DNA of 42,635 nt, from positions 1 to 42,635 of the IMG/VR virus record IMGVR_UViG_3300010403_000033. One strand, 5' to 3'. A program made the translations under genes and the position numbers. The stretch is from a virus. Positions 7,057 to 25,140 of this stretch are shown in pieces; position 1 is the stretch's first letter; every line of letters starts with the position of its first letter. A model generated the notes under the pieces. The model ran no database searches. It saw nothing but the letters and a program-made list of their open reading frames with translations, and was not told where the DNA came from.

Positions 7057-10000
7057 TTAATCGGTTGTCACTGTCCACCCCTTGGAAACTAAGTTAGCGG
7101 CTGCCGTGGCCCCTGCCCCGGTGGGTGTTGCTGCCGGGGTTTGTTGTAAACTCACACTTCCATTCAATAAACCATTCCCGTCCAATCCCACCAGTATTGC
7201 ATTCACTTGGGAAACGGAAAGGGCATTGTTATACATGCTGACCTGAAGCAAGACAGAAAAATTAATGGTGTCATAAGTCAACCCCGTTGGATTATTAGTT
7301 AAAACAAGATTGGTCATTGCTGGCAGGTTCCCACCCACTCCCTGAATGCTTGTTAAAACGGGGTTGTTTGAAAAATTCAACAAACCGTTCACTGTTGACG
7401 GAACCCCGGTCACGGAAGTCACAAGTGGGAATGCATTCATCCCAAACGTGTCCACGTTTGCATTCATTCCAGAAAGATCCACGGTTGTCATGGTGGAATC
7501 TGGATGTCCTGTCATTCCTATATTAACCACGGCTGCGCCCGGTGGTGGTAAGACAGTGGCCACATCCATGACCCCGGTCAACGTACAAGAAAAAAAGAAA
7601 TTTGTTAAGGTAGTTGTCCAAAAAGTTGTTTGATGATAAATTTCCCCGACAATTACATCATTGTATGCAAATATGCCCAAGTTTTCACTGAAATAAATAA
7701 CGGAAGTAAACGTGTCACCTTCGCCACCGCCCAAGGTTGTGTAATCATGAAAAAAGGTCAACGTTAAAAAGGAACCCAAAGTAAAAGGTTCCAGGGGTGA
7801 ACCGTCACCCCAATCAATGAACCCGTCATGGTCGGCACCATCAAAGGAACCGATAAATAATTGACGGACGGGTTCCGGTCCCAAAGTGGCCGTTTGCGTA
7901 ATCGTATAAATAAAAGCGGAAAGATCCGTGGAACTTATCGTTGTATCTATATCAATCGTTGCACAATCATTTGCGACCGTGAAATGAACGGTCACGTCTG
8001 TCCCTTCTTCGGGGTCACCGGTGAAATGCAGGGAAAACGTCCCGTCCAGGTTGTCCACAATGTCAATCGTTAACCAGGCAGGGACATCAATGGCCGTATA
8101 AATCAAAGGGGGTGTGGGTGTGCCTGGAAGATCAATTGTAAAATCATAAGGGGTCCCCACGGTGGCATCCGGCAACGTCACGTCAACGGGATCCGTCACG
8201 GGGGTGCAAATGCAATCTGAATTTAGGGACCGGGCTTCAAAGACCGTTCCCGTGGGATAGGAAAGACCGGTGATCACTGCCGGGGTGTCCGTAAACAGTC
8301 CGGCAGAAATCCAGTCTGGATCCCCAAAGACCCGGTATTGAATTTCAAACCCGTCCTCTGGTGCCGGGTCACAAAGGGTGAAGGCAATCGAAAGTCCAGT
8401 GATCGTTCCCGGAACCGGTGGGGGTGGGGGATCACCAGGGGGGGGTAAAGGATCCCCGGTTTCAAAGGCCCCCATGTCAGGGGCCAGTCCGTTAAAAGGT
8501 AACCCCACGTCCAGGGTCCCGGCATCAATTAAGTCACTGCCATCAATTAAATGGGCAAAGCTGACCAGGGGCAAACTTCCATCTGCATTCCTGGCCCCCT
8601 GTAATTCCGTTAATGGTGAAAGGGCAATGAAATCACCGGCATCAATAGTGACCGCCCCGTTCCATGAATTGTTGGCTTGCACCCAATATTGGGATTCGGA
8701 TGGAATGGGCCCTGCAATGATGGAACTGCCATAAGAGGCATTATTTTTAAAAATGTGGTGAATCTGCCGTTCCGGATAATAGGCAAATTTGAAGTCACTT
8801 AAACCGTTATTGATGGATGAATTATTGTAAAGCTGTGCCAGGAAAACCCCATTATTTTGGTCAAACCCGTTGGCTTTGTTTCCGGCTGCAAGACAACGGG
8901 TCACAAACCTGGTGACAACCGTGGTGCTGGCATTTTCACTCCCGTCCGTTGAAACTGTGCCGCCCATTTTAAACCCATTGCCATCCCCCAAGGAATCCCC
9001 ACCGGCATTGAATCCATTGTGGAAGGACCAACACCCATTATAATAAATGGATCCAATGGTTCTAATGCAATCCCAACCATCATCGGCACAATTCCAGGCC
9101 CGGCAGTAATTATAAACCGTATTGGTGGCCGTGTTGCCGTGTCCCGTCCTTGAAAAACCGTCACTGTTGTTGTGTGGCCCTGTTGGTGCCCCGGTAAAGG
9201 GATCATCCAGGTCATGGGAATCACAATTATTTAAAGTGTGGTTATTTACGTTGTCCAACCTGAAACCGGTCATGGAAAAAGAAGCTTCACAAATGTTGCA
9301 CGTCACGTTCGTTTTTGAAGTGTTGGCATCAATCCACCAACAGGCTGCATAAGTTCCCGACCCGCCCCCCACTTCTTGGGCCGGTCCGACTACTGAAATT
9401 CGCCAAAAGTCAATATAGCTGCAATCCAGGGTGTGGATCCCAATTCCCCCACTGGTCCGGGCCACATTCAAACAATTATAAATCACATAACCCCCACCCA
9501 CAAAGTCCGGGGGATAGCCTTGAATCGTTATGTGGGCTGAAGACGTGCCACTTTTGTTGTTGATCAAAACATTGTTGGTCCCGGCAAAAAGAGGGGCATA
9601 ACTGTCATAAGTCCCCGCCCGGATGTTCACCGTGTCCCCTGGTAAAAGATTAATCCCGTTGATTTTTTCAATATGCAACCAGGGATCGGAAATTGAAAGT
9701 CCCGTGTTGGAATCATCCCCGTCCGTGGCAATCCAGTAAGTGTTCCCCGTGGCCAAATACTCCCATGGACCAATATCGGGAACACTAACCACCCCATTGC
9801 CCCCGGCATCCGTGGTCCGGAAGGATGTCGTCCCGTTATTCACAACCGGGGAACCACTGGTTGGCATGTAGTCGTCCAGTTCGGTCAGGGTTGTACTTCC
9901 ATTCGTGAACAAGGGTGTTCCAGCAATAGAATTGAGATCGTGACCGGTGGTTTGCCAGTTGGCAAGTGTGGAATAACCGGCAGGATCCAGGACCAAGGCC

Positions 10001-10842
10001 CCGCTTGTATATTGAAACAGATTGTAATTAGAAATAAAGGTTCCCGTGCCGGCATTGTAAATGGCGGCATCGGTTCCTTTAATGAAAATATTATTTAAGA
10101 TTTGTTGCCCGGTGGCTTGTGGGGATCCCCCGTCACTTGGGGCCATTAAGATCCCAAAGCTTCCCCCCGTGGTCCGAATAACGTTGTGAACGTAAATCCC
10201 GTTGGTGGCACCTTTAGCATAAATGCAGGTGTATAAACCCGAAGCATTGAAGTTGAACACGTTGTTGTAAATCCTGGTGTTGGCACAAACTTTATCAACA
10301 ATCCCGTAATAGGTCCCCGAAAAATAACTGTTCCGGCAAATGTTCCCGTTGGCACCCCCACCGAATAAAACACCATGGACCGTTTGGGCCCCCACGAAGG
10401 TGGAAACAATCCGAAGATTATCTATCACATTGTTGGAAGCTGTGGATCCCCCCGTGTTGGCATCCATGCCAATCTTTATTCCGTAGCCGGTCCCGTAATT
10501 GATTGTTATAAACAGGTTAAAGAAGTTGTTATTCCCACCAGTTACGTCAAAGGCCCGGTCACTGACATTGTTAAAGGCCAGGCCGTCATAAGTCCGGAAA
10601 TTATTGGGGCTGACAATGGGGGTCGTCAAACTTACATTGCCTGTATTGATAGCCTGGAAAGTGATCCGGGTGGAATTGTTGGTGCCGTTCTTCGTGGTTG
10701 TAATCCCGGCATAACTGCCATCGTCAATTAACACCAGGTCCCCGGCCACCACCACACTTTCTGCCTTACTTAAAGTCAGAAAGGGGGAACCAATTGTTCC
10801 GGGGTTGGAATCACTGCCTGAAGTGGAAACGTAATAAGTCAT
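7057..10842 (-). CDS. Multidomain tailspike: two beta-helix modules, Ig-like and LRR domains
   Basis: A 1261-residue protein. Residues 1-365 start TYYVSTSGSDSNPGTIGSPF and form a DUF1565-like right-handed beta-helix. Residues 368-800 form a second one, starting TYWIATDGDDSNTG, with DDGWDCI (587-593) and GNGFKMGG (621-628), as in pectate-lyase family 9-like helices. A proline-rich hinge (799-810) leads to an FN3-like domain (~813-885), an Ig-like domain with TVGTPYDFTIDLPG (~895-970), and leucine-rich-repeat-like strands (about 1105-1240). The protein likely binds, and may cut, a host surface polysaccharide. No signal peptide, as expected for a virion protein. It overlaps the upstream gene by ATGA. 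Confidence 0.85.
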   Translation of the reverse strand: MTYYVSTSGSDSNPGTIGSPFLTLSKAESVVVAGDLVLIDDGSYAGITTTKNGTNNSTRITFQAINTGNVSLTTPIVSPNNFRTYDGLAFNNVSDRAFDVTGGNNNFFNLFITINYGTGYGIKIGMDANTGGSTASNNVIDNLRIVSTFVGAQTVHGVLFGGGANGNICRNSYFSGTYYGIVDKVCANTRIYNNVFNFNASGLYTCIYAKGATNGIYVHNVIRTTGGSFGILMAPSDGGSPQATGQQILNNIFIKGTDAAIYNAGTGTFISNYNLFQYTSGALVLDPAGYSTLANWQTTGHDLNSIAGTPLFTNGSTTLTELDDYMPTSGSPVVNNGTTSFRTTDAGGNGVVSVPDIGPWEYLATGNTYWIATDGDDSNTGLSISDPWLHIEKINGINLLPGDTVNIRAGTYDSYAPLFAGTNNVLINNKSGTSSAHITIQGYPPDFVGGGYVIYNCLNVARTSGGIGIHTLDCSYIDFWRISVVGPAQEVGGGSGTYAACWWIDANTSKTNVTCNICEASFSMTGFRLDNVNNHTLNNCDSHDLDDPFTGAPTGPHNNSDGFSRTGHGNTATNTVYNYCRAWNCADDGWDCIRTIGSIYYNGCWSFHNGFNAGGDSLGDGNGFKMGGTVSTDGSENASTTVVTRFVTRCLAAGNKANGFDQNNGVFLAQLYNNSSINNGLSDFKFAYYPERQIHHIFKNNASYGSSIIAGPIPSESQYWVQANNSWNGAVTIDAGDFIALSPLTELQGARNADGSLPLVSFAHLIDGSDLIDAGTLDVGLPFNGLAPDMGAFETGDPLPPPGDPPPPPVPGTITGLSIAFTLCDPAPEDGFEIQYRVFGDPDWISAGLFTDTPAVITGLSYPTGTVFEARSLNSDCICTPVTDPVDVTLPDATVGTPYDFTIDLPGTPTPPLIYTAIDVPAWLTIDIVDNLDGTFSLHFTGDPEEGTDVTVHFTVANDCATIDIDTTISSTDLSAFIYTITQTATLGPEPVRQLFIGSFDGADHDGFIDWGDGSPLEPFTLGSFLTLTFFHDYTTLGGGEGDTFTSVIYFSENLGIFAYNDVIVGEIYHQTTFWTTTLTNFFFSCTLTGVMDVATVLPPPGAAVVNIGMTGHPDSTMTTVDLSGMNANVDTFGMNAFPLVTSVTGVPSTVNGLLNFSNNPVLTSIQGVGGNLPAMTNLVLTNNPTGLTYDTINFSVLLQVSMYNNALSVSQVNAILVGLDGNGLLNGSVSLQQTPAATPTGAGATAAANLVSKGWTVTTD

Positions 10843-13466
10843 TCAATTATGGGTGTTATTGTTAATACACTGGATTCGCAACAAGGGGTGCATTCCACAC
10901 ATGCACCTGCCGGGATCAATATTCCACACGTGGAAGCCAAAATTTCAATGGCACAAAAACCTTCCCCAACCGGCACGGTGACACCTGTTTGAACCACGTT
11001 GTCACAATCAATGTAACTCACATTCGTTGCGTCTTCTGTTCCGATATTGACAAACTTCAAACACGGCACGTCTTCCGGTGGTGGTTCAGGGTTGCCCGGA
11101 TCGTCACACGTGGACGAAGGGAAAACCGTGGCCGGGGTTTGTATTAAGATGGCAAAGGCACACAAATGCAGTCCCGGATCCAGGGTTGTGAATTGTGAAA
11201 TATTGTCACAATCCACATAAGTCACATCGGAAGGCTGTGGACCCGTGTTCTGGAATCTTAAACAAGTCGGCCCAATCGGTGGTGGGGTTTCCGTGGGTGG
11301 TTCTGGAACTGGTGCCGGGGTGTTGCCTGGATCTTGCACGTCCGGGGGTTGCAGTCCGCTTGCTGGCCGTCTTATGATATTGCCTGTTAGCGTTATGGTG
11401 TTACTGGAATAGTCAACCAGGATGTTCCCTAATCGCATAAACACGTCATAATTGTCACGGGTTTCCAGCTTCATCAACTTGCCTATTTGTGCAAACTGAT
11501 TTTGGAACACCCCCAACGTGTTGAGCATTTCCGGACAAAGATCCACTTCAATATGGGCCGTCTGGTTGGATTCCTTGGACTTTAGCGGGTTGTCAATTAC
11601 ATCAAAGTAATTGGGAAACATGTTCCCATAATAGTCACCGTCAAAATATAGGGGATAGTTAAAAATATAAGGCCCTGGATTATCTTTAGAAATGTCGTTT
11701 TTGACATCATACTTCACATCCCGGGTGTTGTAATAGGGGTTCGCAATCGGAAGGGTTGTCCTTCGGACTACCTTGGCCCGGTTCATTTCCACCCCGTCCC
11801 AAAGCAAGACACGGGGGACCGTGGTTTGTTCGGCTGTCATTCGGACGGCCCCCGTGTAAATGTCGTTATTTATAAAATCGTCTTCAAACCTGTTGGCTTG
11901 TGTGGCAATTGCTGTCACGGTGGCCCAAAGGAAGGCAATGATGGCTGCCGACAAGGGAATGGTCACCAGGGAAAGATTGGATAAAAGGACGGCTGCCGAA
12001 ATGATGGCAATGATCACAATTAAAATCATGGCCCCAAACTTCCCGTCCTGGATCAAAAGACGGGTGTAGTCCTTAGATCTTCCGTCCCTCAAAAATCCCG
12101 TGGCTCCAAAGTCAAAAATTCTTTGAAGTTCCCCTTCCAACATGGGGTTGTTGCCGGTTTCATCAAAACCTATTGCCTCACTGTAAAGAGCATTAATTTC
12201 CTGGCTGGCTTCGTCCACTGGATCCGTCTGGTATTTATATTCCCCGTATGCAGGTCGTTTATTGCCGTTAAAAGTATAGCGCAAATGATAAAACGGCACG
12301 GCATCCGGCAACGTAAAATCATAAATGGGGGCCAGTTGAATAAGATCTTTTTTATAGGCAAAGACAATCTTACTTTGGGGGGTCACGTACCATTCAGCAT
12401 TGAATAAAACTTTCAATTTATCTAGTAGGTCAGGAACGGTGATCAACCACCGGTTTTCATAGTGGAAAGTCAGGGCCGGGGAAGTAATGGCATCCGCTTC
12501 ACTTTCATGCATTTCACCCGACCGGGGAAACAGTAAACAAAGGTTTTCCCATTCCCTTCCCGTATCAAAAACGGTATCCATCGTCATGCCACACTTCAGG
12601 GCCACGTTTTCAATGTAGGTGTGAATGAAGGGGGCCTCAATGAACCGGTTTAAATTCATGATCCGTCTTGCATCTTCATTGGGACTTGGTGCATCCGTTA
12701 TCCAGTCAATCAAAAACCCAAGGGGGAAGATCCCGTTTTTCACCCCATGAAAGAACATCATTAAAGCCATCCGGGCTGACTGGACCAAACGGGGACGGGG
12801 TTCAATGGCTGCCAGGAACGTGGGGTGTTCTTTGGTACTGGTCCCGTCTTTATTGAACCACCGTTGCCAATCATCCACTATCGGTGTCTTATGGATACAA
12901 TGCCAAATTAAATCCTGTTCCCGAAGTTTGACATGCACCTGGCAGGGTTCATCCTGGGGGGCATAGTCCAAATTGTCTGCTTTGATTTCAAATAGCCGGT
13001 AATTCCCGGCAGGGTCACCGGTGGGGCCCACGTTCCCCCGTGCAATAAGATCGATTATTTTAACCTCCACACAATTAATGACCTGGTAATCGAATAGAAT
13101 CAACCAATCATGGACGAATTGAAAAGCTTTGTCAATCAAAAGAAGGTTAGCCGTTAAACCTTTATCATAGTTGCTGCCCTGTTCGGAAGTTTCACTGTTC
13201 TTCGTGTCCCCCTGGTTGGTTTTATCCCACGTAAAGGACATTTTTTCTTCTTCTTCAATGTAGTTGCTTAGATCATACCAACCATCAACGGGTTCAATCC
13301 CCATGAAGGGGGTGGTGTTGTCCACGTCCCCGGCAATATACATGGCGGCCCCCGTGCCAGGGTCGGCAGTAACAATGACGTTAATTAGTGGATCATCCGG
13401 GGTGGGGAAGTTAGCCTGGTTTTGTCTTCGCCTAAAGAAGATTTGAAAACGTCCGTTGAGGATCAT
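10839..13466 (-). CDS. Baseplate/tail-tip-like protein with hydrophobic segment and Cys repeats
   Basis: An 875-residue protein directly after the tape measure gene (ATGA overlap), the usual place of distal tail or tail-associated proteins. Residues 1-450 are mixed alpha/beta. Residues 478-522 are strongly hydrophobic, enough for two membrane spans. From 700 a Pro/Thr-rich linker leads to two copies of a Cys module: CLRFQNTG...VTYVDCDNISQ (735-787) and CLKFVNIG...VSYIDCDNVVQ (802-852), followed by CVECTPCC. The repeats could be surface-exposed binding modules. The hydrophobic stretch might insert into the host membrane at DNA entry; this is inference. Confidence 0.75.
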   Translation of the reverse strand: MILNGRFQIFFRRRQNQANFPTPDDPLINVIVTADPGTGAAMYIAGDVDNTTPFMGIEPVDGWYDLSNYIEEEEKMSFTWDKTNQGDTKNSETSEQGSNYDKGLTANLLLIDKAFQFVHDWLILFDYQVINCVEVKIIDLIARGNVGPTGDPAGNYRLFEIKADNLDYAPQDEPCQVHVKLREQDLIWHCIHKTPIVDDWQRWFNKDGTSTKEHPTFLAAIEPRPRLVQSARMALMMFFHGVKNGIFPLGFLIDWITDAPSPNEDARRIMNLNRFIEAPFIHTYIENVALKCGMTMDTVFDTGREWENLCLLFPRSGEMHESEADAITSPALTFHYENRWLITVPDLLDKLKVLFNAEWYVTPQSKIVFAYKKDLIQLAPIYDFTLPDAVPFYHLRYTFNGNKRPAYGEYKYQTDPVDEASQEINALYSEAIGFDETGNNPMLEGELQRIFDFGATGFLRDGRSKDYTRLLIQDGKFGAMILIVIIAIISAAVLLSNLSLVTIPLSAAIIAFLWATVTAIATQANRFEDDFINNDIYTGAVRMTAEQTTVPRVLLWDGVEMNRAKVVRRTTLPIANPYYNTRDVKYDVKNDISKDNPGPYIFNYPLYFDGDYYGNMFPNYFDVIDNPLKSKESNQTAHIEVDLCPEMLNTLGVFQNQFAQIGKLMKLETRDNYDVFMRLGNILVDYSSNTITLTGNIIRRPASGLQPPDVQDPGNTPAPVPEPPTETPPPIGPTCLRFQNTGPQPSDVTYVDCDNISQFTTLDPGLHLCAFAILIQTPATVFPSSTCDDPGNPEPPPEDVPCLKFVNIGTEDATNVSYIDCDNVVQTGVTVPVGEGFCAIEILASTCGILIPAGACVECTPCCESSVLTITPIIE

Positions 13467-16400
13467 GATTTTAAGTCAATTTTCTTTTGTTCAATGCCTT
13501 GCATTAACATGGCAGTGACCCCATGTTTGTCAAAGGTGAAATCAAATTTGAAAGCTTTTAAAAGTCGGTTGTTTTCCCGTTGCAGTTCCACGTTTTCCTT
13601 CAGGACCCGAATTTGTTCGGCCAACATGCCCTTCATTTCCGTGTTGGTGGCTGTCGCATGTTCCAACCTTCGGATGTTCACCACCGGCACGTCCGGACGG
13701 GCATACTTCAAGACGGTTTCCGTGGTCGTCTGCATGCCGTTTCGGGTGTTGTTCACTTCCCTGGTCAGTTGCCGGGAAACCTCCACCAACCGTTCCAACT
13801 TAGTTTGCCCCGTTTCAGTCTTGGTGTTTTCCTTCACAAACTGATTGACCAGGACCGGATCAATCCGCTTTTCCAGGACGGCATGAATGGTTTCTTGATA
13901 GTCCCGGTTCGTTTTCAGGAAGGTTTCCTGGTGGAAGTAGTTGGCCACCCGGTCCCGTTCAACCTGGTTGACTTTATCTGCATACCGTTCCAGGATCCGG
14001 GTTGAACTATTATCTGAAGTAGCCACTTCTTTCACCTTGTTGGTCAATCGTTCCACAAAGTCCGGCACCACCCGTTGAATAACTTGTTCCGGGTGGGGCA
14101 AGGTGGCCAGGTTGTTGACCACCCGTTGAACGGTTTTTTTAAGATCCACGTGTTCATTGTTGATGTATTGGATCAACTGCCGTTGGGTCACGGGGTTGGA
14201 CATGACTTCCCGTAACTGCCGTTCCACCAGTTTTTCAAACACGGGCAAGGGGGTGTTCCGGTAAAATTCCCGGATGGTGGATTGCAGGTTTTTTACGTCT
14301 GCATGCTCTAAAGTTTTATTTTCAATGTTGTTTCTCAATTCTTTGGAAATCAGTGGAACTAAATGGCTGGCCATTTCCTTGTTGTAAAGTTTTTCAGTCA
14401 GGATCTTTTCCACGTTTTCCACATGATGTTCATCCATGACCCTGCTTAATTCCCGGACCACTTCACGGGTCTTGGAATCCATAACCCGTTCATTCATCCC
14501 ACGGGCAAATTCTTTCACCGTGTTCACCACGTCCTTTTCAAACTTCCGTTCCGTCATTTTATTGATTTCCGGTAAATCCTTCCGGGGTGTGGGGGTTGTT
14601 GCCTGGATCCGTTCCGTTAGCTTTTCCAGGATGTAAGGCACCACCACCCGGCTGTCTTGCACGTTCAACCGGTCAGTCAATTGTTCCCGGATCATCTGCA
14701 TGCTGTCCTTTGTGTCCCTGGTTTCCACAAGACTGGCCAGGTTTTCCACCAGTTTGTCACTTTCCCTTTCATGGAACGTCCGTCTGAATCTTCGGGTCAT
14801 GAACCGTTCTGTGATCCGGTCACTGAAGCTTTCCAACACATGGTTCACTTCCTTCAAGTTGGTGGTGACGTTGGATGATTCCTTGGTGTTCACCCGGTCC
14901 GTAATCAGTTTCATGATTTGAGGAACCAAGACAGGCCGGGTTTCCAGTTTAGACTGAAGGAAACGTTCCACGTGAAATAAGATTTCCTTCTTGTCCTGGT
15001 TGTTCTGGATCCGGGAAGAAACCATTTCTGTTATTTCCCGGACCAGGTTCCTTTCTTGAAGTTTGGCTTCCCTGGTTTGGCTGTAAATCTTTTCTTGGAA
15101 ATGTTCCCTGTCCTTAAAATGTCGTTCCTGAACCCCTTTTAAGACCGTTTCCGGGACCCGTTCTGTTTGCTTCCCCTCTTTCCAAATTTCCTTTTGGTGT
15201 AAATTTTGCCCCGTTAGCGTCTGCCTGACAAAAGAATTCAGGATTTCCGGGGAAACCTTACGGTTGTGGATGGCAGACAACGTGGCAAAGTAATCTTTGT
15301 TTTCTCTGGCTGTCACCACTCTTTCCCCGGCCGTTAACCGGGCAGGAACCGTGTCAATCCCTGGTTTATTCCCCCCAAGTGTGACTTCTTCCGTTCCCTT
15401 ATAAAAGTTGGCCACCGGTGGTTGAAGACTTTGAACAAACTGGAAGGCTGCCGTAATGGCCCCAATGACCGCAATCCCGGCAGCAATGGCCGCAAAGGGG
15501 GCGGCAGGGCCGGACGTGCTGGCCGCTTGTGCAATGGCAGAAACCGTGGCCACCAGGGCATTCGATAACACCAAAGCAGAATTGATGGCCTGTTGCTTCC
15601 TGGCTGAAGCTTCCCTTTTAAGTTCCAATTGATCCAAACGGTCCTGTTCTTCATTTAAGAATTCAGCGTTCCCCCGTTCTGCAATCCGGGTGGCTTCTTC
15701 CACCCGCTTTTTTTGCAGGTTTATAGATTGATCCAGGGACTTTTGTTCTTGGGCATTGAGTTGCTGCCAAAATCCAATAACCGACCCCAACACCTGTTGA
15801 ACCGATTGGGCATATTTCACCAAATTTTCTGTCCGTTTCTTCAGTGGATCTTCTTTTTGTTGTTCGGTGTTGCTGTCAATGGCTGCAATTTGGTCTTTGA
15901 TTTCCCTGGCTTGTGCCCGTAATTGTGCAAGCTGTTCCGGGTCGGTGGTCGCATTGATCCGGACGTTGATTTGTTGAAGATCCGCTTCCAGTTCTGCTTT
16001 ACGAATTTGATCCCTTTCCGCTTTTTGTTGTTTCAAAAGGGCCGTGATGTTTTCCTGAAACTTCTTGTAACTGATTGTCCCGGCTGCCAGGGCATCTTTT
16101 TCTTTCACTATCCGGGCCGCAATGTTCACGTCCACTTCCGTCAACTGTTCTTCAAAGAATTCATTGGAATCTTTGACCGTTTTCTGGAAAGTTTTAAAAG
16201 CATTGTCGGATAAATCCTGGTTCTTTTTTACTTCGGCCTGGTCTGCCAAGTCCCCGAAAATTAACCGGATCCCAAACTTTTTGCGCTGTGCAATGGCCGG
16301 ATCCAATCCCTGTTTCACGTCTTCGTCCACCTGTTTGATCAAATTGGCTTCCGCTTTCCTTAGATTGGAAAGGGTGTTTAAATACCCCTGCTCAATTTGC

Positions 16401-17998
16401 TGTTTCTCCCTTTCATTATCATCCCGGATGTTGGCAATTCGTTTGTTGGCTTCATCAATTCGGGCCCCTTCAATGGCATCATTCAGTTTGTCATTTAGAT
16501 CCTGGACTTTCCGTCTGAATTCTTCCAGGGCTTGTTCTTGTTGATCTTTAGTAAGACCGGTTAACAAATCTTTGAGAAAGTCATGTTGTTTTTTCGTTAA
16601 CTGTTCGTGGGATTTAGGGTCCAGAAATTTGTCAAGGTCCAACAGTTGTTTTCCCAATGCAGATTGAAAACTGCCAATAATATTTTCTTCGGAAGGGAAT
16701 TTTTGTGCATTGAATTGTTTGACGGCATCCTGGATCCTGGTCAATTCCCGAAGAAAGACATTGACCGGGGCATTTTTATCTTGGGCAGATTTGGTCACAC
16801 TTCCAGGGGTGAATAAATCCTTCAAAGCATTGGTGACATCATCCAAATTCTTTTTGGCTTTTTGCCCTTCAGAAAATGTATTGAACAAACCCTTCAGTTC
16901 ATCTTCAGTCAGGCCCACCGATTTGGCAAAGCTGTCAATCAATTCTTGGTCTTCCTTCCTTATGGGGTTGGCCACGGCCCCGGCAGTTGCCCCCCGGATC
17001 ACAATTCTATTTTTATTCGCCCGGTCTTCCAACTGACCAAACAACTTTAAATTCCCTTCCAACAAAGTTTGTGTTTGTCCCAACTGTTGGGCTGCAAGAC
17101 GAATTTGTAAATCTGCCTTCAGGAAGGGTTCGGCCACTTTTTGAATTTCCACCACGGCAGCATTGGCCAAAGCCACTTGAATCAACTTTTCCTTTTGATC
17201 ATCCAACAATTTGTTGATGGTGGTAATGTTGTTGATTTGGGTGGTGTCAATTTGGTTTTTTTGGTCGGCTGTTTCATTGAATTCTTTGGCCACACGTAAC
17301 CGTTCTTTTTCCGGAACGGACAAATCCGTTAATACTTTACGGTATGCTTCCAGTTTAACGACTTGCCCCGCCACACTTTTGGCAGCATTTTCCACCACGT
17401 CTTTTTGGGCCTTTTGCTTTTTTTCAAAGGCATCCAAATTCTGAATGGATTCCAATAGTTGTTGACCAAATTTGATTAAGGCCGGAAGGGCTTCCGCAAT
17501 TAGGGCCCCCACAAAACCACTGACCAACCCAAATGCCGCTTCCGTGACAAAGGTCCTTAATCTTCCCACTGCTTCCCCGGCCAACCGGGTGACGGATGTG
17601 AATTTTCCAATTTCTTCCCGTGCTGACCGGTTGTTTCTGACCGTTTCATTGATTTCCTTGTTGTAAAGGGCTGCCCCTTTTTGAAGAACGACCTGTTGAA
17701 CGTTGGCTTCCTTTAGGGCCGTGGACAGTTCTTTTTCCCTGGCAGTCAGGACGGCAATTTGATCCGACAATTCTTTGACTTTCTTCGGATCTCCCGCTTT
17801 GGTGGCTGCATCCAAAGCTTTTTGAGTTTCGGCCAGTTCCTTTTGATTATCATCCAGGGCCTTATTTAACCGGGCTTGTTCTTCCCGGACTTCTTTCATT
17901 CCTTGCTTCAATTCTGCAAGCTTCACCACCACTTCATTCACACCATCCATTATTGGCTTGCCGTCAAATTCGGCCCCGAATAAAACATTTTCTGCCAT
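13463..17998 (-). CDS. Tail tape measure protein
   Basis: At 1511 residues, the longest gene in the window. Residues 1-160 and 190-790 are charged coiled coil rich in Lys, Glu and Gln. Hydrophobic stretches lie at ~156-178 and ~805-858 (Ala-rich, SAIAQAASTSGPAAPFAAIA). Next comes PGIDTVPARLTAGERVVT, a motif common near the end of tape measure proteins. Unusually, another ~600 charged residues follow, and the segment after the motif (ENKDYFATLSAIHNRKVSPE) has a second diverged copy near 1357-1395 (TNRDYQETIHAVLEKRIDPV). At about 1.5 angstrom per residue the tail would be roughly 220 nm. It follows the chaperone genes, as expected. Confidence 0.92.
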   Translation of the reverse strand: MAENVLFGAEFDGKPIMDGVNEVVVKLAELKQGMKEVREEQARLNKALDDNQKELAETQKALDAATKAGDPKKVKELSDQIAVLTAREKELSTALKEANVQQVVLQKGAALYNKEINETVRNNRSAREEIGKFTSVTRLAGEAVGRLRTFVTEAAFGLVSGFVGALIAEALPALIKFGQQLLESIQNLDAFEKKQKAQKDVVENAAKSVAGQVVKLEAYRKVLTDLSVPEKERLRVAKEFNETADQKNQIDTTQINNITTINKLLDDQKEKLIQVALANAAVVEIQKVAEPFLKADLQIRLAAQQLGQTQTLLEGNLKLFGQLEDRANKNRIVIRGATAGAVANPIRKEDQELIDSFAKSVGLTEDELKGLFNTFSEGQKAKKNLDDVTNALKDLFTPGSVTKSAQDKNAPVNVFLRELTRIQDAVKQFNAQKFPSEENIIGSFQSALGKQLLDLDKFLDPKSHEQLTKKQHDFLKDLLTGLTKDQQEQALEEFRRKVQDLNDKLNDAIEGARIDEANKRIANIRDDNEREKQQIEQGYLNTLSNLRKAEANLIKQVDEDVKQGLDPAIAQRKKFGIRLIFGDLADQAEVKKNQDLSDNAFKTFQKTVKDSNEFFEEQLTEVDVNIAARIVKEKDALAAGTISYKKFQENITALLKQQKAERDQIRKAELEADLQQINVRINATTDPEQLAQLRAQAREIKDQIAAIDSNTEQQKEDPLKKRTENLVKYAQSVQQVLGSVIGFWQQLNAQEQKSLDQSINLQKKRVEEATRIAERGNAEFLNEEQDRLDQLELKREASARKQQAINSALVLSNALVATVSAIAQAASTSGPAAPFAAIAAGIAVIGAITAAFQFVQSLQPPVANFYKGTEEVTLGGNKPGIDTVPARLTAGERVVTARENKDYFATLSAIHNRKVSPEILNSFVRQTLTGQNLHQKEIWKEGKQTERVPETVLKGVQERHFKDREHFQEKIYSQTREAKLQERNLVREITEMVSSRIQNNQDKKEILFHVERFLQSKLETRPVLVPQIMKLITDRVNTKESSNVTTNLKEVNHVLESFSDRITERFMTRRFRRTFHERESDKLVENLASLVETRDTKDSMQMIREQLTDRLNVQDSRVVVPYILEKLTERIQATTPTPRKDLPEINKMTERKFEKDVVNTVKEFARGMNERVMDSKTREVVRELSRVMDEHHVENVEKILTEKLYNKEMASHLVPLISKELRNNIENKTLEHADVKNLQSTIREFYRNTPLPVFEKLVERQLREVMSNPVTQRQLIQYINNEHVDLKKTVQRVVNNLATLPHPEQVIQRVVPDFVERLTNKVKEVATSDNSSTRILERYADKVNQVERDRVANYFHQETFLKTNRDYQETIHAVLEKRIDPVLVNQFVKENTKTETGQTKLERLVEVSRQLTREVNNTRNGMQTTTETVLKYARPDVPVVNIRRLEHATATNTEMKGMLAEQIRVLKENVELQRENNRLLKAFKFDFTFDKHGVTAMLMQGIEQKKIDLKS

Positions 17999-18190: not shown

Positions 18191-18954
18191 TTATTTTTTA
18201 TGTTTGGCTTCTTCGTAAGCTTTCTTTTTCTGTTCTTCTTCCTCTATGAACAAGGACATTTCATTGTAAAATTCACCCACCGGATAACTTAACATTAGAT
18301 CCCGGTTGTGAATGTCACCGCCCGTAATGACACGAATGAATTTTTGCGTCTGCCGTTCCTGTTTGTTGTTAATGTGCATTTGTTGTTGGATGGTCCCTTT
18401 CATTGGTCCGGCTTGCTCAAAGCAATTTGGGAAATACTTTTTAAGTCCTTGATATAATCCCGTGTGATAACGTTGTACCAAGTCAAAAAAAAAGGGATAG
18501 CGTCCACCATGCCCGCCCAAAGCTTCAGTTTGCGTCCACTTTCTTCTTCGTCAAAGTAATCAATCCTTTCATCCCCGCTTAAAATGTAAACTGTGCAAAG
18601 GGCCAGGTGTTGACGAACGGGGTCGGCCGTGTAATTGGCAAGACGTTCTTTTTCCAGGATCAACTGAAACAACTTTTCATATTTTTCCGGATCCGTGGAT
18701 TTGATCAATGCTTTTTCCTGGTTGCACCAATCCAGAATATCTTTTAAGGAAAGTCCCATTGTAAACATGTCGGAAATGTGCCGGGCCATCGATAAACGCA
18801 TAATCGGAATCTTAAACAAATCATCAAAACCAAACCACACGGTTCCGTCCTGGTCCTTGTAGATCTCTGAAGTTTTAATTTCTATTCCTGCTTCGTTGCG
18901 ATAAAGACGTTTGATCTTGCCGTTGGTGGTGGTTTCCTTGGTAAGTTGGTACAT
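18191..18954 (-). CDS. Tail assembly chaperone, -1 frameshift fusion product (254 aa)
   Basis: The equivalent of lambda gpGT. Ribosomes reading the 184-residue frame meet T9 at 18493-18485. A -1 slip on T_TTT_TTT at codons 155-156 moves them into a second frame that stays open to 18191 and adds 98 residues ending in EEEEQKKKAYEEAKHKK. That frame has a nominal start at 18520, but it carries no leader and lies inside the first gene. Location directly upstream of the tape measure, size, and a basic/acidic helical tail all fit the G-T chaperone that holds the tape measure during tail assembly. No stem-loop was checked beyond the slip site. Confidence 0.75.
18400..18954 (-). CDS. Tail assembly chaperone, zero-frame product (184 aa)
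   Basis: A 184-residue protein starting MYQLTKETTTNGKIKRLYRN, mostly helical after residue 50. It has no recognised enzyme motif. It occupies the position and size of the lambda gpG-type tail assembly chaperone, ahead of the tape measure gene, and contains a T9 slippery run 28 codons before its stop. It is expected to be the more abundant form, with the frameshift product a minority. Start at 18954 is the first ATG after the double-terminator region. The function is inferred from synteny and the frameshift rather than direct similarity. Confidence 0.8.
   Translation of the reverse strand: MYQLTKETTTNGKIKRLYRNEAGIEIKTSEIYKDQDGTVWFGFDDLFKIPIMRLSMARHISDMFTMGLSLKDILDWCNQEKALIKSTDPEKYEKLFQLILEKERLANYTADPVRQHLALCTVYILSGDERIDYFDEEESGRKLKLWAGMVDAIPFFLTWYNVITRDYIKDLKSISQIALSKPDQ
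18485..18493 (-). other. T9 slippery sequence for -1 frameshift
   Basis: On the minus strand the sequence is CCC followed by nine T and then GAC. In the zero frame it reads CCT TTT TTT TTG, which contains the X XXY YYZ heptamer T TTT TTT. Slipping back one base gives TTT TTT TTT GAC in the frame that runs to 18191. Confidence 0.75.
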
Positions 18955-19196: not shown

Positions 19197-19922
19197 TTAA
19201 AAATAGCGGATGTAAGCAATGGCCGAATTTACTTTTCTGTTTCTTTCAAACACCCCGTTGCCTTCCCGGTCTTCCCCTTTATAACTTGGGTCGGCTGAAG
19301 TATTGCCTTCCACCGTGAACACCTGGCCATCCCGTCTTTCATTTACCAAAAACGTGTGACCATGGCCCCCACCAAAATCCATTATTCCCTGGTCCCCTGG
19401 TTGGGGATCCAAGGTTATTTTGTAACCCCTGGCCCTTGCCCTATTCAAACAATCCAGGACGCCCCCGGTCTTGGGGACCGGATTGACAATGTTTAGTTGT
19501 TTGGCTGCTTCATTAAAAGACCAGTAAACAAAAGCCATGCACCAGGAATAACCTTCCCTTAATCCCACCGTTTCCAGAAACTTCAATACTTCGGCCCCGT
19601 CATTGTGACCCGTTTTTTCCCGGACAAAAAGTTGCGTCCTGGCCACTTCCAAGGCCCGTGACCGAAGCGTAAAACCGGACGGGGGTTCCATCACCTTGGT
19701 TTCAAATAACCGTGTCCAGGTCAAAAGACCAACCTGCCCGTCTTGAATTAACTGGTTAGCCTTTTGAAAAGCTTTCACGGTCGTTTCCGTGGTTTCGCCA
19801 AACGTGGGACTTTTCGGATCCAGGGGGCCAAACCCTTTTTCATTGAGGGCAAATTTGATGGCCATGACGGAAGAAGAATCCAGGGACGAACGTTGAATGA
19901 TAGTTCCAGGGTAGGGGATCAA
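19197..19922 (-). CDS. Endolysin: peptidoglycan-binding domain plus CHAP amidase/peptidase
   Basis: A 241-residue protein. Residues ~10-78 form a PG_binding_1 domain (SVMAIKFALNEKGFGPLDP ... QDGQVGLLTWTRLF). Residues ~85-241 form a CHAP domain with catalytic Cys128 in GYSWCMAFVYWSF and the histidine in GGGHGHTFLV (His187/His189). CHAP enzymes cut peptidoglycan amide or peptide bonds. There is no signal peptide, so a holin or another export route is expected; several tiny membrane proteins are encoded upstream. The start overlaps the 707-residue gene's stop as ATGA. Position just before the tape measure cluster leaves open a virion-associated lysin used at entry. Confidence 0.93.
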   Translation of the reverse strand: MIPYPGTIIQRSSLDSSSVMAIKFALNEKGFGPLDPKSPTFGETTETTVKAFQKANQLIQDGQVGLLTWTRLFETKVMEPPSGFTLRSRALEVARTQLFVREKTGHNDGAEVLKFLETVGLREGYSWCMAFVYWSFNEAAKQLNIVNPVPKTGGVLDCLNRARARGYKITLDPQPGDQGIMDFGGGHGHTFLVNERRDGQVFTVEGNTSADPSYKGEDREGNGVFERNRKVNSAIAYIRYF

Positions 19923-22921: not shown

Positions 22922-23578
22922 TTAAAAGGATCGTTTACGTGGTTCTTCATTCGGCCTATTGGTTGGAAATTGCCCCATTCCATATTGCCTAACCAGGACC
23001 ACACAAAGGTCACTTGCTGACTGCCCCTGACTATTGTAAACCGTTTTTTTGAACATGTAGAAACCAGGTTGTAACATGCTGACTTTGGTAAAGGACGCGT
23101 GTGGATCACTGAAGACGGCATTCCCCCCATAAAGCTTTGACCACCTAACCAATCCATCAACAGGAACGTCCCGGCCACCAATGGCCACCCCATTGGGCAA
23201 GGTCACACTTTGATCCGGTCCGGCATTGGCCTTTGGTGCCACGTTCACTTTAAAGGTCACCTGCATGGTGTCGTTAGCAATTCCCCCGGCATTATCCGTG
23301 ACCCGGAACACAAACTTGTAAACCCCGCCCAACCACTGAAGGCCCCCGGCAGGGACCACGGTGGTGGTGTGAATCACGGATTTCACGGCTGTGGTGTAGG
23401 TCACAATAGGGGTCCCAAAGACGGTTGCTGAAGGATTGGTGGAAAGGGCCAACCATTCCGATTTGGAAACCGTGCCGTCACTGTCGGAACCATTACCCAC
23501 CAGGGTGACGACCTGAATTTGACCATGTGAAACTAAGATTGCAAGGGTGACAAGTAAGAGGGCAAGGAACTTCTTCAT
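22922..23578 (-). CDS. Exported protein with PKD-like domains (218 aa)
   Basis: Starts MKKFLALLLVTLAILVSHGQ, a clear signal peptide with a likely cut after SHG. Two PKD/Ig-like domains follow: about 25-115 (GSDSDGTVSKSEW ... GVYKFVFRVTDNAGGIAND) and about 115-195 (KANAGPDQSVTLPN ... PGFYMFKKTVYNSQG). The C-terminus is basic and proline-rich. PKD domains usually mediate binding in secreted or surface proteins. In a phage, an exported one may be made in the host envelope rather than in the virion, where it could affect superinfection or lysis. The start overlaps the DUF1508-like gene's stop by ATGA. Confidence 0.75.
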   Translation of the reverse strand: MKKFLALLLVTLAILVSHGQIQVVTLVGNGSDSDGTVSKSEWLALSTNPSATVFGTPIVTYTTAVKSVIHTTTVVPAGGLQWLGGVYKFVFRVTDNAGGIANDTMQVTFKVNVAPKANAGPDQSVTLPNGVAIGGRDVPVDGLVRWSKLYGGNAVFSDPHASFTKVSMLQPGFYMFKKTVYNSQGQSASDLCVVLVRQYGMGQFPTNRPNEEPRKRSF

Positions 23579-23775: not shown

Positions 23776-25140
23776 TTATAATTTTCCACCAACAAATTGT
23801 CGGAAATAATTCCACATGAAATAACGTAAATCATCCAACAGGTGGGTTTTCCTGGCATCTTTACTCTTATCAATTTCTCCTTTCTCGTTCACTTTCACCG
23901 TCCTTAAATCATCAATCAAAAACGGACATGCTGAAGAAATCCAGAAGTTTCCATGTTTGTGAAACAGGCTATTCATTAGGATCCTGGTGTTCCTCACTGA
24001 AGGATTGGACCGGGGGAATTGCACCTGCCTGGATGATAACTGCAATTCTTCTTTGATGATCTTCACATAAGACCGGTTGCCCTTGGTGATTGCTGTCCTT
24101 GCCCTTCCACTGGCATCCCCCGTGGCCACAAGGAAGAAGTCCCCCCAATCTTCCAGGACTTGTTTCGCTAAAGCAAAAATGTCGCTGTTCCGTAAACGAT
24201 ATTCAGCAATCACTTTGCCCCAATCCATTTTATAGCGTTGGGCAATTAAACAGGTGATGGGATCCACGTTGAAGTCAAAGATGGCATAGAGGGGCAAGGA
24301 CTTCAGTGGTTGCATAAACCTGGCCCCTTCTTCGGTTTCCACATCCACCACATGTTTTTCCTTGGTAAAGGAATAGGCAAAAAGCTTCACGTCTTGCAAG
24401 AACCGCCAAATTCCCTCAATCATCTGTGCCCTGCTTATGGGATCCAGGTTTTCCCAATTGGCCCACTGTTCGGCAGTGACATAAGGATTATCTTTTGGCA
24501 AAGCTTCCGTGAAATCCATCATTTCCGGCAGTTTCCCAAGAACGTAAGGATCATAAATCTTGTCTTTTACCCATGTGTCCGTGGGATTAAATGTCCCAAG
24601 GATCAACGGGGGTGGCATCTTGGTCAAATACCAGGACCCCACACGTTCCACCGACCTGGTAAGCAGTTTTTCGGACAATCCTTCCATCTGTTCCAATAGG
24701 ATCCCGTTCGTTTCCAATCCTAACATCCACTTTAATTCCGGGTCCTTCATTAAGTTTTCCGTCTTAAAGAAGATCTTGGATCCATTGCGGAAGTGGATGT
24801 GGTAATTGCTGCTTTTTCGTTTCCACACAAATTCACTGCAATCTTCGCGGCCAATTAACTTTTCCATGGATGGAATGGTGGTGTCTTCCAGTTCCGGGAA
24901 ATCGGAACGGAAAATGTGCCACCTGCTTTTTGGGAATAACTTGGCCAGGCAATAAAGAATGAAAAGACAAATGAAAGTCTTCCCCCCACGAATGGCCCCA
25001 CCGAAAAAGAACTGCCGGATCTTGTTAATTCCACGGACCGCCCCCATGACTTTTTCATAAAAGATAACCTGCTTTTCATTCACTTCACCGGTGTCCGGAT
25101 GTTTGAAGGCAAACACCACAAGTTCTGTTTCTTTAACCAT
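23776..25140 (-). CDS. terL: Terminase large subunit
   Basis: 454 residues. ATPase domain: Walker A GGAIRGGKT at 47-55 and Walker-B-like ILLEQ at 147-151. Nuclease domain: IFDFNVDP (287-294) with Asp289, GDASGRAR (341-348) with Asp342, and HLLDDLRY (433-440) with Asp436/Asp437. This set of acidic residues is the RNase-H-type metal site of headful-packaging terminases. It pumps DNA into the prohead through the portal. It follows the small terminase; the TAATG overlap with a 26-codon membrane peptide suggests coupled translation. Confidence 0.96.
   Translation of the reverse strand: MVKETELVVFAFKHPDTGEVNEKQVIFYEKVMGAVRGINKIRQFFFGGAIRGGKTFICLFILYCLAKLFPKSRWHIFRSDFPELEDTTIPSMEKLIGREDCSEFVWKRKSSNYHIHFRNGSKIFFKTENLMKDPELKWMLGLETNGILLEQMEGLSEKLLTRSVERVGSWYLTKMPPPLILGTFNPTDTWVKDKIYDPYVLGKLPEMMDFTEALPKDNPYVTAEQWANWENLDPISRAQMIEGIWRFLQDVKLFAYSFTKEKHVVDVETEEGARFMQPLKSLPLYAIFDFNVDPITCLIAQRYKMDWGKVIAEYRLRNSDIFALAKQVLEDWGDFFLVATGDASGRARTAITKGNRSYVKIIKEELQLSSRQVQFPRSNPSVRNTRILMNSLFHKHGNFWISSACPFLIDDLRTVKVNEKGEIDKSKDARKTHLLDDLRYFMWNYFRQFVGGKL

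Follow-up and report, generated by a model that had tools for sequence, protein, structure and literature searches.

The stretch of DNA analysed here (hereafter the window) is a 42.6-kb IMG/VR virus record of 42,635 nucleotides (IMGVR_UViG_3300010403_000033), in which all features of the chaperone locus lie on the minus strand. The locus opens with frame A (18400..18954, minus strand), which was taken from the ORF list and is conserved in the family by profile. Running from an ATG at 18954 to 18400, it has 184 codons, of which 156 lead up to the slip and the others encode a 28-aa tail, and it predicts a short chaperone-like product of 184 aa. The slip run itself is a stretch of nine T's (18485..18493, minus strand) in the context CCC-TTTTTTTTT-GAC; it appears as A9 on the plus strand, and is the only A/T run of at least nine bases within the window. 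Frame A reads ATC CCT TTT TTT TTG ACT across the run, which places the heptamer T_TTT_TTT (18493-18487) in the zero frame, and the -1 frame reads TAT CCC TTT TTT TTT GAC. Frame B (18191..18487, minus strand), the predicted C-terminal extension after a -1 slip, is comprised of 98 codons (18487-18194) and a stop codon (18193-18191), so that a slip after codon 156 of A would yield a fusion of 254 residues. The sequence-only reading had described the 184-codon frame, the T9 run in its context and the 98-codon -1 frame correctly to the base; its phase for the heptamer and its length for the fusion were recovered as well.

A tape-measure-type gene (13463..17998, minus strand) follows the stop codon of frame B after a gap of 192 nt, in agreement with the position before the tape measure that had been claimed for the slip. 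Its 1511-aa product shares 38.5% identity over 947 residues with the corresponding protein of the relative L003, and is some 500 residues longer than those of the relatives L002 and L003 (about 1000 aa), the additional residues being located in the C-terminal third. Other genes recognized in the window encode an endolysin with PG_binding_1 and CHAP domains (19197-19922), which lies immediately upstream of the chaperone pair, a protein with a PKD domain (22922-23578), and a 1261-aa beta-helix protein (7057-10842) that resembles Pel9A and is perhaps a tail spike.

Relatives of the locus and conservation of the T run

Searches of viral and genome contigs with protein A alone and with a three-sequence alignment returned nothing new, and two scans of the genome contigs found no relatives. 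The terminase of the window (23776-25140), used as a query against IMG/VR, led to L002 and L003, which both hold A (about 55% identity), B (about 50%) and a T9 run in the same phase as the window. Terminase alignments extended the set to L006-L010 and then to approximately 180 more loci, many of which were repeat hits to a single contig. Slip sites were located by searching for pairs of frames that overlap in -1 and contain an A/T run of at least 7 bases, and by a second, profile-based scan for which long T runs were not required; the sites were identical. Two loci that the profile missed owing to the divergence of their B (L161 and L162) were added by inspection. Dereplication at 70% identity of the fusion protein left 44 genomes, whose terminases are down to about 35% identical with that of the window. 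Their runs are T9 in the register of the window (33 genomes), T9 in another register (five), T8 (three), T10 (two) and T7 (one). Left outside this count was L116 (IMGVR_UViG_2881677958_000001), where a T10 run in the window register places A and B in one frame and results in a single A+B ORF of 248 aa (L116:13678-14424), the usual tail of A being still open in another frame; this locus represents either a genuine variant in which the long form is the default, or a homopolymer error.

Neither an interrupted T run nor a second frame lacking conservation, the two observations named in the sequence-only reading as speaking against a frameshift, was encountered: the in-phase T_TTT_TTT is present in 44 out of 44 divergent genomes, and in each of them the -1 frame stays open for at least 87 codons, compared to a median of 4 codons to the stop in the +1 frame. 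Among the 37 genomes that share the register of the window, T1 to T7 are found in all, T8 in 36 and T9 in 34. Conservation falls off sharply right after T9, with an entropy of 1.06 bits at position 10 and of 1.2-2 bits at most neighbouring positions. An alignment of 38 A proteins contains only three invariant residues, R53, F155 and F156, and the two phenylalanines correspond to the slip codons. T1, T4 and T7 occupy third positions of frame A, and since TTT accounts for 61% of the Phe codons and T for 29% of the third positions in the genes compared, the A protein alone should not fix these three bases. Given Phe-Phe, the neutral chance of a T at all three is about 0.11 per genome, yet this was seen in 37 of 37; multiplying this value across relatives is indicative only, because of their kinship. 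The slippery poly-T run is real and is retained across distantly related viruses, and the best reading of the locus is, almost certainly, that two products are made by a -1 slip.

Identity of the two proteins

A long ORF follows the pair in 43 of the 44 genomes, at a distance of at most 250 nt in 38 of them, and this ORF matches PHROG tape-measure families in L077 (3.5e-41), L096 (7.7e-12), L065 (7.4e-9) and L003 (6.8e-6). AlphaFold2 models of A and of B, the latter all helical, both have a mean pLDDT of 88. When compared with Pfam and PHROGs, the A and B proteins of the window gave chance-level or single weak matches only, and phrog_9001, annotated as 'tail assembly chaperone', matched one of 40 B members (0.0042). 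Foldseek at E <= 0.001 retrieved nothing for A from PDB and BFVD or for B from BFVD, and second looks with VIA-align pointed to common helical arrangements only.

The chaperone role is proposed because of the order of the genes and the two predicted products, as found in lambda, and not on the basis of homology. In lambda, as in its counterparts among long-tailed phages, a -1 shift in G/GT produces two chaperone products from a position directly before the tape measure gene (Xu, Hendrix and Duda 2004, reviewed in PMC5009743). The window family has the same overlapping frames, would likewise shift by -1 close to where the first frame ends, lies before the tape-measure gene, and has a similar arrangement of a short main product and a C-terminal extension; it differs in using poly-T (T_TTT_TTT within T9) where lambda uses G_GGA_AAG, and no similarity in sequence or fold was detected between its proteins and those of lambda. 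Lambda G/GT can be considered the functional analogue. Of the earlier proposal of a G/GT-like tail chaperone with a slip, the programmed -1 event, the arrangement, the position and the length of the fusion were supported; homology to known tail assembly chaperones was not, as neither Pfam, PHROGs nor the fold searches gave a significant match for A. The two proteins are presumably tail-assembly chaperones.

Homopolymer runs in isolated Bacteroidota phages

The nearest named tape measures belong mostly to phages of Bacteroidota. No SD-like motif was found before any of the 25 larger ORFs tested in the window, where leaders are A-rich, and Bacteroidota are the likely hosts.

Named Bacteroidota phages and their kin carry a chaperone of about 250 aa with an A9-A11 run at codons 127-132 in nearly all cases inspected. 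The default frame of these genes usually spans the full length, and the alternatives often run into a stop within a few codons. This run was noted, at codons 131-132, at the loci L188, L189, L194-L198 and L201-L203 (phages PDS1, AS73P1, TCUEAP2, BKO1-3, PD691P4, BF486P2, P2559Y, BF10P1, FpV9 and B40-8); these genes have a dnaX-like layout, which is not annotated as such in the records. The annotation 'tail assembly chaperone' is given for Elizabethkingia phage TCUEAP2 and for Flavobacterium phages. In Flavobacterium phage 1/32, two frames offset by -1 are connected through an A10 run, and the chaperone is annotated as joined. The PDS1/B40-8/FpV9 family resembles the window in the position before the tape measure, the size of about 250 aa and the internal homopolymer of some 9-11 bases, and its C-terminal part has a weak similarity to B (E 4e-5 in a profile test with five sequences). 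It differs in that the run consists of A instead of T, the A part has no detectable similarity, and there is usually a single full-length frame with alternative frames that soon close.

Individual records depart from this organization. Croceibacter phage P2559S (L200:801-1566) has an A8 run and a second frame in +1 instead of -1, annotated as two genes, which reflects either an error or a different shift. Porphyromonas phage005b (L190:2774-3560) possibly carries an unannotated -1 site, T_TTT_TTG (gaTTTTTTGaa), with a -1 frame that is open as far as the tape measure. The split of the BF8P1 gene at an A11 run (L193:1501-2254) was initially regarded as proof of transcriptional slippage, but was dropped: BF10P1 (L201) has A10 and one frame, and the two phages are identical over the 302 bases from the end of the run to the end of the gene. 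An error in the homopolymer or a variant in run length may therefore account for the A11 of BF8P1.

Origin of the two products

We consider slippage of the ribosome the probable source of the fusion. We infer the synthesis of both proteins, the ribosomal slip and the chaperone function within a model in which most ribosomes would stop at the end of frame A and release the 184-aa product, while a fraction would slip one base back on U_UUU_UUU within U9. The Phe tRNAs in the P and A sites could re-pair fully with UUU, and the slipped ribosomes would read the 98 codons of frame B to produce the 254-aa A-B fusion. If lambda G/GT is a guide, the tape-measure protein would be the binding partner of A, and tail-tube subunits would be brought in by the B extension, with the efficiency of the slip setting the ratio of A to AB.

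In support of the ribosome, the invariant core of the run is exactly an in-phase heptamer, and this heptamer is kept where the run is shorter, namely T7 in L154 and T8 in L071, L138 and L139, the T8 form being present in at least two clades. Stems of 13 to 14 bp are located 5-6 nt past the heptamer in L071 and L124, each of them the strongest among 2000 nearby positions and the two differing by three base pairs that are altered on both sides; the sister L131 lacks the stem. The downstream stem of L154 ranks third of 2000 positions. Strong downstream stems favour the ribosome because the downstream RNA is not made while the polymerase is on the run. These three long-range stems (7 to 14 bp, approximately 5-7 nt past the slip) are candidate frameshift stimulators; a stimulatory structure or SD-like element is a common but not an obligatory part of programmed -1 frameshifting. 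Over the 44 genomes, pairing in excess of shuffled sequences peaks with the 5' arm 4-5 nt downstream (mean z of about -0.58), a stem is within the top 1% in only five of the 44, and one control offset is likewise enriched; no consensus RNA structure was found across the family and no downstream stem in the window. In E. coli, U_UU.U_UU.U shifts at more than 0.10% without stimulation and H_HH.U_UU.Y motifs rank among the efficient shifters (PMC4066793). Several observations speak against the ribosome: at least nine T's are retained in 40 of the 44 genomes, although the heptamer needs seven; a stem is lacking in the window and a shared structure in the family, the enrichment in stems being due to a minority of genomes; A_AAA_AAG is cited in a review as being much more shift-prone than U_UUU_UUU in E. 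coli (PMC5009743); and A and B share one frame at the T10 run of L116.

Alternatively, RNA polymerase may stutter on the run, such that some mRNAs gain one U (U10) and are translated normally into frame B, which would yield the same products, A and AB. We regard this as a serious but lesser possibility. Runs of nine A or T are commonly avoided in bacterial genomes as slippage-prone, and are used for programmed transcriptional slippage (PMC1088944). The same retention of nine or more T's counts in its favour, as do the 56 A/T runs of at least nine bases in the 745 kb of the 44 genomes, of which 40 are the slip sites, and the conservation of T8 and T9, far above that of the adjacent doubly coding positions. 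The phages isolated from Bacteroidota whose tape measure is related, and in which an A9-A11 run lies inside a chaperone gene with the long form usually in the default frame, also agree with this explanation. The members with T7 and T8 and the invariant in-phase core of the heptamer argue against it, and the stems of L071, L124 and L154 would not yet exist for a polymerase on the run and so could not influence it. Moreover, a substitution at T8 or at T9 is non-synonymous in one of the two frames, so that their conservation is perhaps partly at the protein level. The transcriptional slippage genes dnaX of Thermus thermophilus (A9) and mxiE of Shigella (PMC1088944) likewise have an A/T homopolymer that links frames within a coding region, but these are cellular genes, whereas the window family has an invariant in-phase heptamer and also runs of 7-8. 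The window itself fits both mechanisms, with the ribosome being favoured.

Both machines could also be involved, with polymerase slip on U9 mainly setting the ratio, and a ribosomal slip plus downstream stem adopted by the lineages whose run shortened to T7 or T8. This combination seems unlikely to us; if true, it would constitute a natural swap of the decoding mechanism within one gene family, comparable to dnaX of Thermus versus E. coli.

It is highly improbable that frame B is an independent gene that starts at a codon of its own, or one part of a gene split by a homopolymer sequencing error: a TTG at 18520 does open frame B in the window, and L116 and BF8P1 indicate that run length can vary between records, but frame B has no ATG, GTG or TTG upstream of the slip in 37 of the 44 genomes and an ATG within its first 25 codons past the slip in four only, and independent contigs from numerous samples show this -1 offset again, with neither the A tail nor B lost. 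For the family, we therefore rejected internal initiation and sequencing error, and the column test, the open -1 frame and the scarcity of starts together exclude chance as well.

Frameshifting in tail chaperones is itself well known from phage lambda. Literature searches in an open library turned up neither poly-T slip sites nor transcriptional slippage in reports on tail chaperones. The device described here is of a known kind, but the family is unannotated, lies outside Pfam and is at most marginally covered by PHROGs; its slip site is uniformly poly-T even though the phages are very divergent, and annotators should join its frames A and B. Its T7, T8, T9 and T10 runs, along with the A9-A11 runs of the isolated phages, provide a comparative set for distinguishing the ribosome from RNA polymerase as the slipping machine, and the cultured A-run phages B40-8, PDS1 and FpV9 make such testing practical.
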